Shown here in pieces: positions 34,653-44,834 of a stretch of DNA of 45,458 nucleotides (positions are counted from its first letter, which is position 1; each line of letters opens with the position of its first letter). The notes under the pieces are model-generated. The model was not told the DNA's origin. It ran no database searches and worked only from the letters and a program-made list of their open reading frames with translations. The stretch covers positions 1 to 45,458 of the forward strand of contig JAHJQV010000039.1 in assembly GCA_018819105.1 (NCBI GenBank), read 5' to 3'. This DNA comes from Gammaproteobacteria bacterium (GTDB taxonomy: Bacteria > Pseudomonadota > Gammaproteobacteria > Xanthomonadales > Wenzhouxiangellaceae). The position numbers and the translations under genes were made by a program.

Positions 34653-36932
34653 TTATAACAGATCGAAGTCAGTGCCCATCTGCCATTGGTCATGCTGTTG
34701 TGGCCCATATAGATGCTGCAAACAGCCCAGTACATCTTCCACTTCCAGGCACAGGCTGATGATCAGCTGCGTGTTTTTGCCGGAATAATGCCGTGCACGC
34801 AATCCCTGCAGCTGCATCCGCAGCAGTGCCTGGATCTGCGTGTGGCAATGCTGTCGGTGGCTCGTGTCGGCCGTCGTTAAGAGCTGCTCCAGCGCGTCGG
34901 CCAGACGCTGCAGTGCTTCCCGTTGAGGTGCATGCAGCGGCGGATGCGAGTTGCGCTGGTAAGTGTGGCAGGCGCTGGCGATCAGCTCGGCGGACTGGTA
35001 CAGATCCTGCTGCGTGGCAAACAGCTGCAGGCGCTGTATATCCTCATCGCTGTGGCTGGCGGCAACTGGCGCTGGCGGTGGCAGCGTCACCGCAATGTTT
35101 GTCCCTTCTGTCTGCAATCCTTTGTCTGCAGCAGTGCTTGCTGATGGCGTGGCGGCGACCATGTTCGGTTCGGCGAGCAGCTCAAGCAGACGGATTTCCA
35201 GGCCGCGCAGCTGCTGGCCAAGCCGCTGCGCGGCCTGCACAGCGCGCAGCAGTTCAGCGCGGTTTGCGGCTGCCAGCGCGCGCAATGTCATGACGGCAAT
35301 CTGCAGCGCGCAGTTTGCGACCTGTTGTGGTGCAAAAGGCGTGCTGTCGGTAACAGGGTGCAAGCGCGCTTTGCGATGCCGGTGCAGTCGATGCGTGTGC
35401 ACCAGTGCGGCACCACCGACCAGAGTCAACAGCAGCATTGCCACGCCGCCGAAATGATGAATCAGGCTGGCATAGATAAACGCCACCAGCAGCGCAATGA
35501 CGGCAGTGGCGAACCAGCCGCTGATGACATTGATGACACCACTGACACGAAACACGGCGCTGTCCAGGCCCCAGGCGCGGTCGGCCAGCGATGAACCCAT
35601 GGCCACCATGAAGGTGACATAAGTGGTGGAAAGTGGCAGCTTCATCGACGTGGCAATGGCAATGAGAATGCTGGCAACGGTCAGATTGACGGAGGCCCGC
35701 AACAGGTCGAATGCCGGTGCATCGGTCTTGCTCTCTGCGCCATGGCCGGGTGTTGTCAGCTGGTAGCGCTGATCGACCCAGTACATGGCGCGACGCGGGA
35801 ACAGCCACAGCAGGAGCTGGCCCAGCCGCAACCCGCTGCGCACCAGCCAGCGGCTGATCAGGTGCGGGCTGAAGCGTTCCGGCCCGTTATCCTGACGGCC
35901 CAGGCTGATTTCGGTTTCGGTCACGCTGCGAGCTTTTTCTGACCACCACAATGCGGCCACCATGATCATGCCGGCCAGCAGCAGATACTGGGTCTGACCA
36001 CGCACCGGTGCAGTCAGCGCGGTCATCGCATACTCGCTGGCTGCGACGCCGCTGGCTGACCAGTCCTGATAGGCCGCCAGCCCGGCCAACGGCACGCCGA
36101 TGAAATTGACCAGGTCGTTGCTGGCAAAGGCCATTGCCAGGGAAAAGCTGCCGACCAGCACCACCAGCTGTAGCAGGTTAATGCGCCAGAGACGCTGCAG
36201 CAGGGCGAGCAGCAGCAGCAGACCGCCAAACATCGTCACCGCGAGCAACGGCATGTTGCCATCCAGCACAGCGCTGAAGTGTTCACCGAACACGCTGGCG
36301 CTGCCCAGACCCTTGAGCAGGATGAAAAAGACGATGCTGGTGATGGCCAGTGCACACCAGATCACGGTGGCGATTTGCTGCTGCCGGTGTTGAAAGGTAA
36401 ACACCAGCCGCGAGACGAACTGTACAGCGGCGCCGATGACAAAAGCGATCAGCACCGAAGCGACGATGCCGACAATGATGGCCACAGCACTGCCGGCATT
36501 GATGTAGCTCAGCAGTGCTGTCGGGCTGTCCGACAGAGCCAGCAGCTTCCACATCGCCACCGCCAATGCCGCGCCGAGCAACTCGAACACGATGGATACG
36601 GTGGTCGAGGTCGGCATGGCAAAAGTGTTGAAGGCGTCCAGCAGCAGAATGTCCGCCAGCATCACCGCCACGAACAGGCAGGTGATGTCAGCGAAGCTGA
36701 ACAGCTCCGGATGGAAGATGCCCTTGCGTGCCACTTCCATCATGCCGGATGAAAACAGCGCGCCGGCGAGCACCCCGGCCGAGGCGATAAGCAGAATCGT
36801 GCGGCGACTGGCGGCACGCGAGCCGAATGCGGAATTGAGAAAATTGACCGCATCATTGCTGACACCGACCAGCAGGTCAGCGACCGCAAGCAGAATCAGC
36901 AGGCCGACCACGGCCAGGTAGAATGAGTCCAA
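34653..36932 (-). CDS. PiT-family inorganic phosphate transporter with C-terminal helical (PhoU-like) domain
   Basis: The 759-aa protein shows the duplicated PiT signatures: VGVSNDAVNFLNSAFGSRAASR at the N-terminus (Gly-x-Asn-Asp motif) and AMAFASNDLVNFIGVPLAG in the second half. The segment MPTSTTVSIVFELLGAALA and its repeat LPLSTTYVTFMVAMGSSLADRA are also present. About 11 membrane helices are present over residues ~5-510. The last ~230 residues are soluble and helical (ANRAELLRAVQAAQRLGQQLRGLE), resembling a PhoU-like regulatory domain. It is expected to import phosphate coupled to cations in the inner membrane. No pho box is obvious upstream. It lies in the minus direction, divergent from the atp operon. 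Confidence 0.88.
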   Translation of the reverse strand: MDSFYLAVVGLLILLAVADLLVGVSNDAVNFLNSAFGSRAASRRTILLIASAGVLAGALFSSGMMEVARKGIFHPELFSFADITCLFVAVMLADILLLDAFNTFAMPTSTTVSIVFELLGAALAVAMWKLLALSDSPTALLSYINAGSAVAIIVGIVASVLIAFVIGAAVQFVSRLVFTFQHRQQQIATVIWCALAITSIVFFILLKGLGSASVFGEHFSAVLDGNMPLLAVTMFGGLLLLLALLQRLWRINLLQLVVLVGSFSLAMAFASNDLVNFIGVPLAGLAAYQDWSASGVAASEYAMTALTAPVRGQTQYLLLAGMIMVAALWWSEKARSVTETEISLGRQDNGPERFSPHLISRWLVRSGLRLGQLLLWLFPRRAMYWVDQRYQLTTPGHGAESKTDAPAFDLLRASVNLTVASILIAIATSMKLPLSTTYVTFMVAMGSSLADRAWGLDSAVFRVSGVINVISGWFATAVIALLVAFIYASLIHHFGGVAMLLLTLVGGAALVHTHRLHRHRKARLHPVTDSTPFAPQQVANCALQIAVMTLRALAAANRAELLRAVQAAQRLGQQLRGLEIRLLELLAEPNMVAATPSASTAADKGLQTEGTNIAVTLPPPAPVAASHSDEDIQRLQLFATQQDLYQSAELIASACHTYQRNSHPPLHAPQREALQRLADALEQLLTTADTSHRQHCHTQIQALLRMQLQGLRARHYSGKNTQLIISLCLEVEDVLGCLQHLYGPQQHDQWQMGTDFDLL

Positions 36933-37256: not shown

Positions 37257-38844
<1,588 letters not shown>

Positions 38845-41957: not shown

Positions 41958-42827
41958 ATGGCAGGTGCACGCGAAATTGTCGGCAAGATCCGCAGCGTCA
42001 AAAACACCAAGAAGGTGACCAAGGCGCTGGAAATGGTGTCGGCCAGCAAGATCCGTAAATCACAGGATCTGATGTCGGCGTCGCGCCCGTATGCGCGCAT
42101 GATCCGGCAGGTGGTGGGCCATCTGTCCGAAGCCAATCCGGAATACCGGCATCCGTTCATGGTCGAGCGCGAGCAGGTCAACACGGTGGGCTACATCGTG
42201 GTCTCCACCGATCGCGGTCTGTGCGGTGGACTCAACAGCAATCAGAACCGCCTGCTGGTCAAGCACATCCAGCAGCAGCGTGACGAAGGTGCCAGCATCA
42301 GCATGGTCACCATCGGTCGCAAGGCTAACCAGTACTTCCGCAACATCTGCGGCATCGATGTGGTGGCGCACGCTTCCGGGTTGGGTGAGCAGCCACGACT
42401 GGAAGACCTGATCGGCGTGATCAAGACCATCCTCGACAGCTACCGTGATGGCGGCGTGGATCGCCTGCATCTGTGCTACACCGATTTCATCAACACCATG
42501 ACCCAGCAGCCGCTGATTGCGCCGCTGCTGCCGCTGCCGGAAGCCAAGGATGAGGACCAGTTGCTGCAGAACTGGGACTATCTGTACGAACCGGAACCAC
42601 GTGAATTGCTGGACCACGTGCTGACCCGCTACATCGAATCACTGGTTTATCAGGCGGTACTGGAAAACCTGGCCAGTGAGCATGCGGCGCGCATGGTGGC
42701 AATGAAGAGCGCGTCGGACAACGCCAGCGATCTGATTGACGAGCTGAACCTGGTTTATAACAAGGCCAGACAGGCGGCGATCACGCAGGAAATTTCTGAA
42801 ATCGTCGGCGGCGCGGCCGCGGTATAG
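41958..42827 (+). CDS. atpG: F1 ATP synthase subunit gamma
   Basis: The 289-aa central shaft begins [22 protein letters not shown], with the conserved [12 protein letters not shown] in the Rossmann-like domain. The C-terminal helix ends [41 protein letters not shown] (~residues 248-289), the part that rotates within the hexamer. Length equals that of E. coli (287). Two bases after its stop begins an unrelated lipoprotein-like gene, where most atp operons go straight to atpD. Confidence 0.97.
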
Positions 42828-42829
42828 CG

Positions 42830-43354
42830 ATGCGTCACGGTCTGCCACTGCTGCTGATCATGTTGCTGACCGGCGGCTGTGGTGTGTTCGCCGATCGTCA
42901 GCGCGCCGAGCCGATCCCGCCAGCGCGGGTCAGCGCAGCCGATCAGCCGCTACCGGCTGCAAGCGCCGGGCAGTATGCCGGGATCGAGGTGAGCTGGGAA
43001 GACAAAGCTGGTCTGCAGTCACCGGCCAACGAAGCCAGACTGCTGTCGGCAGCGGTCATGACCGAACTGCGGGCGCGCGACATGTCGCATCGGCAGGCCG
43101 GACAGAGTTTGCGGGTGCGCATCATGGAAGTGCTGCTGCGCCCTGGTGGTCGCATGAAAACCGCCACCAATGTGCTCAATGCCAGGGTCTATGTGCTGGC
43201 GGAAGACGGCAGTGAAGTGTGGAATTTCGCCCAGCGCACAGCGCAGACGGTAACCGGCAGAAGCTCACAGTCAGCCGAACAGCAGCTGGCTGAGCTGTAC
43301 CGGCAATTTGCACAACAGCTGGCAGATCGCCTGCAGCAGTCGGCACAAAGCTGA
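42830..43354 (+). CDS. Putative lipoprotein encoded inside the atp operon
   Basis: The 174-aa product has a short basic N-terminus, a hydrophobic core (LPLLLIMLLTGG) and Cys17 (TGGC, a slightly atypical lipobox). A Gly at +2 suggests outer-membrane sorting. The mature part has an N-terminal linker (~18-45) and a compact alpha/beta domain (VSWEDKAGLQSPANEARLLSAAVM; RVRIMEVLLRPGGRMKT; ARVYVLAEDGSEVWNFAQRT). It ends in a Gln-rich amphipathic helix. The arrangement is faintly like DUF4410/LptE-type small lipoproteins, but no family is assured. It begins 2 nt after atpG and is followed 88 bp later by atpD, so it must be transcribed with the ATP synthase. The function is unknown. Confidence 0.75.
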   Translation: MRHGLPLLLIMLLTGGCGVFADRQRAEPIPPARVSAADQPLPAASAGQYAGIEVSWEDKAGLQSPANEARLLSAAVMTELRARDMSHRQAGQSLRVRIMEVLLRPGGRMKTATNVLNARVYVLAEDGSEVWNFAQRTAQTVTGRSSQSAEQQLAELYRQFAQQLADRLQQSAQS

Positions 43355-43403
43355 GTGCACAGGCGCATCACTGAATCACAAGACAAGTTATTTATCGTAT
43401 TGA

Positions 43404-44834
<1,431 letters not shown>

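Follow-up and report, generated by a model that had tools for sequence, protein, structure and literature searches.

The DNA analyzed here (the window; 45,458 nt) contains an ATP synthase operon in which an additional gene lies between atpG and atpD. The gene for the gamma subunit (atpG; 41958..42827, + strand) is followed, after a 2-nt spacer (42828..42829, +), by an ORF with an ATG start that encodes a predicted 174-aa lipoprotein (42830..43354, +). A second spacer (43355..43442, +), which carries a GAGG-type ribosome site, leads to the gene for the beta subunit (atpD; 43443..44834, +). The first 51 nt of the ORF (42830..42880, +) encode a predicted signal peptide II that ends in Cys17 (codon 42878-42880); the residues MRHGLPLLLIMLLTGG directly precede this cysteine and Gly occupies the +2 position. 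These coordinates agree with the earlier note on this DNA, which had described a lipoprotein-like gene 2 nt past the atpG stop, with Cys17 and with atpD following after 88 nt, in an otherwise standard operon. The order atpI-B-E-F-H-A-G-[gene]-D-C was found in the window and likewise in genomes G001, G004 and G008; the lipoprotein copy of G004 fell below the tblastn threshold in this check and its position at the junction was located separately. Two in-frame ATG codons are available to atpD, at 43437 (82 nt past the lipoprotein gene) and at 43443 (88 nt; MNQGK...), and G001 lacks an ATG at the earlier of these, which makes the second the likelier start. No promoter- or terminator-like sites were detected on the + strand at the junction, the overall count being below the shuffle means, and an Rfam scan across the junction returned nothing at gathering scores. 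The nine atp genes span 0.573-0.626 in GC and 0.708-0.785 in GC3; at 0.634 and 0.695, respectively, the lipoprotein gene falls slightly above the first range and slightly below the second, with no strong sign of recent import.

Searches of 101 relatives identified credible homologues in the same genus only in G001 (E 9e-58, 59% identity) and in a second genus in G008 (E 6e-14, 31%) and G004 (E 2e-12, 29%), and the many matches at E > 0.001 were treated as chance. A profile built from the four sequences (A1) matched strongly in four of 43 genomes of the family; among 299 genomes of the order it recovered the same four carriers together with four weak partial matches, and among 369 genomes of the class it found the window's own genome (G000) alone at E ≤ 0.001. 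The weak partial matches in the order (G210, G108, G250 and G106; E 0.005-0.01) were treated as chance, as was a partial match in G000 itself (C62), which contains an internal stop; the five together span E 0.004-0.01. No relative was found when the named genome collection was searched with the lipoprotein itself, NCBIfam gave no match, and solved structures searched by sequence yielded no relative of use, the two top rows aligning over 18 residues. DUF3016 was considered as an origin and gained no support: only G001 matched it, at E 0.23 and below the cut-off, and hhalign gave a probability of 0.2% with thin profiles. All four genomes examined of the two genera carry the gene, and each copy lies between atpG and atpD, so the earlier note's question whether the gene is always located in atp operons was answered in the affirmative for every credible homologue, with the same tight spacing. 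Homologues scattered through other contexts, which the earlier note had named as evidence against an association with atp, did not appear; the genomes of the family (43), the order (299) and the class (369) yielded no credible copy at any other location.

Identity of the lipoprotein ranged from 26 to 71% over the four pairs compared and was 26-32% between the two genera. Nei-Gojobori estimates within genera gave dN/dS ratios of 0.28 for G000-G001 (dN 0.333, dS 1.21) and 0.19 for G004-G008 (dN 0.21, dS 1.13), both of them rough because dS is already high at this distance; between genera, dN was 0.79-1.05 and dS was near saturation, and for this reason no ratio is quoted. For the same two within-genus pairs, dN was 0.051 and 0.076 for AtpG and 0.153 and 0.179 for LptE, so that the lipoprotein dN is ~3-7 times that of AtpG. 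The presence of homologues in four genomes of two genera, together with the two dN/dS ratios, establishes that the ORF at 42830-43354 is a real gene, beyond a chance ORF, and that its product is a fast-evolving yet constrained protein under purifying selection within both genera. Rapid evolution between genera and a narrow distribution would also suit a neutral passenger, i.e., an inserted gene kept only since its removal would disturb atpG-atpD expression. This explanation appears improbable given the purifying selection in both genera, the lipobox, cysteine and 34 invariant columns kept in the alignment of all four copies, the open frame in each of them, and a spacer to atpD that varies by genus (88 nt in G000 vs. 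19 nt in G004 and G008).

The gene is almost in contact with atpG in every carrier. The distance from the atpG stop to the lipoprotein start is +2 nt in G000, -1 nt in G001 (a TGATG overlap), +5 nt in G008 and +2 nt in G004. By eye, no clear Shine-Dalgarno sequence occurs at a normal distance in any of the four copies, G001 having a GGAG ~13 nt upstream of the start. Near-zero spacing without a clear Shine-Dalgarno sequence suggests that translation of the lipoprotein is coupled to that of atpG.

Analysis of the surrounding taxa showed that this junction is seldom interrupted. AtpG was found in 39 of the 43 family genomes. The atpG-atpD gap was 564-609 nt in the four carriers vs. a clean 22-185 nt in all 34 other family genomes measured; in G020 the junction runs off the contig and lies outside this count. 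In a FastTree phylogeny of AtpG and AtpD (38 family sequences and 16 chosen named sequences), the carriers formed one clade (support 0.998) whose sister, G003 (0.968), has a clean 65-nt junction and no lipoprotein gene. The gene was therefore most simply gained once, before the two genera split. Three Wenzhouxiangella-labelled MAGs (L041, L043 and L071) are 100% identical to G040, G031 and G019, respectively, which identifies the family as Wenzhouxiangella-related. The NCBI taxonomy places Wenzhouxiangellaceae in Chromatiales; the order as grouped here appears, judged from names, to include Xanthomonadaceae-like families. The earlier note had reasoned that a clean junction in close relatives would suggest a recent chance insertion. 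The rest of the family is indeed clean, but that conclusion is not warranted: the two genera have kept the gene while diverging to 26-32% identity.

The 80 named loci with the nearest AtpG (three of which, L041, L043 and L071, are the family genomes above) gave 79 measurable junctions, 76 of them with a gap of 22-197 nt. A 321-nt junction in L098 consists of repeated sequence with no convincing gene, and genes occupy the junction in two of the 79, L050 (Rudaea sp., 549 nt) and L105 (Pseudoxanthomonas jiangsuensis, 616 nt). At the level of the class, 276 genomes were searched and AtpG was found in 270; the 149 junctions taken were those of the matches listed, with AtpG most like that of G000, which was itself left out. 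Gaps of 5-296 nt were found at 147 of them, the two above 200 nt containing no ORF above 53 aa, and one more runs off its contig. Thus, only one of 148 measured junctions among the class matches listed was interrupted (G444), in keeping with the earlier note's statement that extra genes between atpG and atpD are rare. The G444 junction (L401:864-3180), from a gammaproteobacterium of another family, holds ORFs spanning ~2.3 kb; repeats occur among them, some have signal-peptide-like starts, and none is lipoprotein-like by eye. A lipoprotein encoded between atpG and atpD was not encountered in the literature searched, although the limited coverage of that search leaves its absence in print unproven.

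The predicted structure of the protein was determined using AlphaFold2 from only four sequences (pLDDT 75.4, pTM 0.66). In the model, the signal peptide and a linker are unstructured to about residue 45, and 10 of 13 ten-residue blocks past residue 50 are above pLDDT 80. The domain consists of E49-56, H65-82, E92-102, E112-123, E129-141 and H149-173, a β-α-β3-α arrangement. The top Foldseek match was LptE (5tse; E 4.1e-7), and the 28 chains at E ≤ 0.001 were bacterial lipoproteins or similar proteins, including LptE, PqiC/DUF330, HpaA, GNA1162 and CT253; TM-scores were modest (0.37-0.57 for ranks 1-9). The proteins at these ranks are LptE or lipoproteins that we take to be LptE. VIA-align superposed the model on 5tse_B with Z 12.2 and an rmsd of 3.1 over 119 residues, and Z values of ~9-12 were obtained alike for LptE, FlgT, PqiC/DUF330, CsgG, PelC and TraT, a listing in which the absence of a family does not exclude that family. 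Because the fold is common to several families, a match to the LptE fold is not diagnostic of LptE. In PMC10897342, PqiC, PelC and LptE are described as structurally akin and 5tse and 2r76 are named LptE. The lipoprotein is accordingly predicted from the model to belong to the LptE/PqiC/PelC fold class, with no closer family assignable.

The resemblance to LptE raised the question of whether the protein might be a second LptE: a paralogue that has diverged, partners LptD (or a paralogue of LptD) and modulates LPS export. Like LptE (RlpB, PF04390), it would be a small outer-membrane lipoprotein with a predicted β-α-β3-α domain; residues 63-168 match the Pfam LptE family at E 0.0053, and the first nine Foldseek ranks point in the same direction. 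The Pfam score, however, is 17.9 bits vs. a cut-off of 23, and the other three homologues gave no LptE match at E ≤ 1. A comparison of profile A1 with 18 family LptE sequences by hhalign reached a probability of 23% over 18 columns, a value obtained with a thin query profile (Neff 1.9). All four carriers, and 40 of the 43 family genomes in total, already have an LptE above the cut-off, and FlgT, DUF330, CsgG and PelC share the fold at similar Z. In G000, the one genome whose neighborhood was viewed, the canonical LptE (C60; 50.1 bits) is encoded at leuS-lptE-holA, whereas our gene lies in the atp operon. We therefore rejected the lipoprotein as the genome's own LptE, which is encoded elsewhere and, unlike it, scores above the Pfam cut-off, and we regard a role as a second LptE as rather unlikely. 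PqiC/DUF330 (XCC0632) and PelC are of the same fold class (Z 11.5 for 2iqi, 10.4 for 8q2d and 10.6 for 5t11), but neither was matched by sequence (PqiC/ABC_trans_aux is not listed in Pfam up to E 10), and MCE/ABC transport or Pel gene neighbors are absent, all four copies being inside atp operons.

A scripted check with a PS51257-type lipoprotein rule was satisfied by all four homologues, which answers the signal-peptide II prediction that the earlier note had called for. In each of them the residue at +2 after the lipobox cysteine is Gly or Ser. If the Lol +2 rule holds in this group, the lipoprotein is predicted to be sorted to the outer membrane and not to the inner membrane, where ATP synthase resides.

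The same operon encodes a long form of AtpB (37774..38844, +; 356 aa). Its extra segment (~residues 252-318, net ~63 residues; 38527..38727, +) is predicted to form a transmembrane hairpin before the last helix. AtpB was present in 42 family genomes, of which 30 loci, one of them cut, were compared. Counted from the conserved Arg motif, the C-terminal part of AtpB was 128-129 residues long in all four carriers and 62-65 residues in the 25 other family AtpBs measured, including the sister G003 (65). As the carriers are long and G003 and the others short, the AtpB gain and the lipoprotein gain fall on the same branch. The insert contains two hydrophobic segments flanking a basic turn. A model of AtpB was poor overall (pLDDT 64) and reached 68-90 over residues 271-310, with helices at 273-291 and from 297 onward, the latter unbroken to 354. 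The insert therefore looks like a membrane hairpin, mostly intramembrane; the earlier note had placed it facing the periplasm, which from these predictions would hold for short parts of it. Three further observations were made on AtpB and the region upstream. The AtpB of G018 (L164, genus g6) is 65% identical to that of the window over residues 9-251, vs. 43-52% for the main matches of other g6 genomes; AtpG and AtpD of G018 group with g6, and transfer of atpB is possible. G022 has, besides its operon copy, a second AtpB-like match (G022:C1:4332-4661; 55% over residues 133-251). Upstream of atpI on the opposite strand (34653-36932) is a gene for a 759-aa membrane protein that by eye resembles a Pit-type phosphate permease with a C-terminal extension.

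The earlier note had suggested that the lipoprotein pairs with the long AtpB and is tied to ATP synthase. On this explanation the lipoprotein would be a clade-specific supernumerary factor that aids or senses a modified Fo, e.g., by stabilizing the AtpB hairpin or the periplasmic edges. Both gains lie on one branch, with long AtpB in four of four carriers and in none of 25 others and with neither feature in G003, and the gene nearly touches the atpG stop in every carrier. Since the carriers are one clade and one event, this co-occurrence counts as n = 1. Elsewhere, AtpB segments of 126 residues but different sequence were found in L054, whose junction runs off its contig, and in L113, whose atpG-atpD junction is a clean, gene-free 150 nt; conversely, L050 and L105 carry junction lipoproteins with short AtpB segments (78 and 71 residues, respectively). 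A pairing of lipoprotein and AtpB is thus possible within this clade but is not general. The AtpB insert is mostly in the membrane, the lipoprotein is predicted to go to the outer membrane, and the ~30-residue linker is probably too short to bridge the membranes. The lipoprotein is found in 4 of 43 family genomes and 1 of 369 class genomes (G000), and so does not accompany ATP synthase widely. To our knowledge, no lipoprotein factor of a bacterial ATP synthase has been described. A physical tie to ATP synthase is possible but unsupported, with the predicted sorting pointing away from it, and we consider an accessory role unlikely.

The genes at the L050 and L105 junctions proved to be of another kind. 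That of L050 (L050:4943-5341) is DUF5339-like at E 5.5e-10, above the Pfam cut-off, and that of L105 (L105:4972-5367) at E 3.5e-4, below it. At E ≤ 1e-5, a profile of the two (A3), which is rich in Ala and Pro and prone to weak chance matches, had matches in 24 of the 299 genomes of the order. The best five (G268, G137, G297, G283 and G121, each from a different genus; E ≤ 3e-30) all occupy the atpG-atpD junction; the other 19 (one at E 3e-24) have no atpG or atpD within 1.5 kb on each side. As the G268 protein is identical to that of L050, the set comprises, with L105, six species of at least five genera (including L228-L232). These genes resemble ours in being of lipoprotein type and in lying between atpG and atpD. 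They differ in that they begin 78-113 nt past the atpG stop, whereas ours directly adjoins it, and in having an Ala/Pro-rich linker and a domain with a conserved Cys. Our protein has no Pfam match to DUF5339, searching G000 with profile A3 gave nothing at E ≤ 1e-5, and no search that we ran indicated kinship between the two. The occurrence of two unrelated lipoprotein families at a seldom-interrupted junction within one order suggests that the junction is a favorable expression site, a pattern that was noticed post hoc; against its being specific to lipoproteins, G444 shows that non-lipoprotein genes can enter it too. It could also be proposed that lipoprotein and AtpB hairpin are a single innovation, in which a clade-specific periplasmic lipoprotein acts at the periplasmic proton half-channel of a remodelled Fo by docking there, by helping in assembly or by gating, the DUF5339-like proteins being independent recruitments; we think this very doubtful.

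Taken as a whole, these results lead us to favor, with somewhat better than even confidence, an envelope lipoprotein with an adaptor-like role whose growth-linked expression comes from the atp operon through coupling to atpG. The product is probably a clade-specific lipoprotein attached to the outer membrane, whose periplasmic domain is of the predicted LptE/PqiC/PelC class. The gene would have been gained once between atpG and atpD, in an ancestor of two genera of the Wenzhouxiangella-related family, and then retained by purifying selection. With the operon serving as its expression site, it would presumably be co-transcribed in one long mRNA, and ribosomes ending atpG may restart at the adjacent ATG, so that lipoprotein output would follow growth and ATP-synthase output. 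It would act in the envelope and not as an F1Fo subunit; like its fold relatives, it would most likely serve as an adaptor or plug, with a partner that lies in the outer membrane or spans the envelope. The finding of DUF5339-like lipoproteins with short AtpB in L050 and L105 fits an expression site better than a part of ATP synthase. This preferred reading does not explain why the AtpB hairpin arose on the same branch, a point against it, and the retained operon position could reflect a functional link to ATP synthase.

Extra non-subunit genes within atp operons have precedents. AtpI (UncI) is an inner-membrane protein encoded at the head of the operon, a position that differs from that of our gene, and Tybulewicz et al. 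are said to have described, in 1984, a gene X in the atp operon of Rhodopseudomonas blastica, located between those for gamma and beta. By sequence, the lipoprotein described here forms a new family; its predicted fold is of a known class, and its place in the operon is rare. The gamma-beta junction is seldom interrupted, yet two unrelated lipoprotein families have settled there within one order. If the junction is an expression site only, a housekeeping operon would link the dose of an envelope lipoprotein to growth; if the position is functional, these bacteria would possess a lipoprotein factor for ATP synthase alongside a remodelled subunit a.
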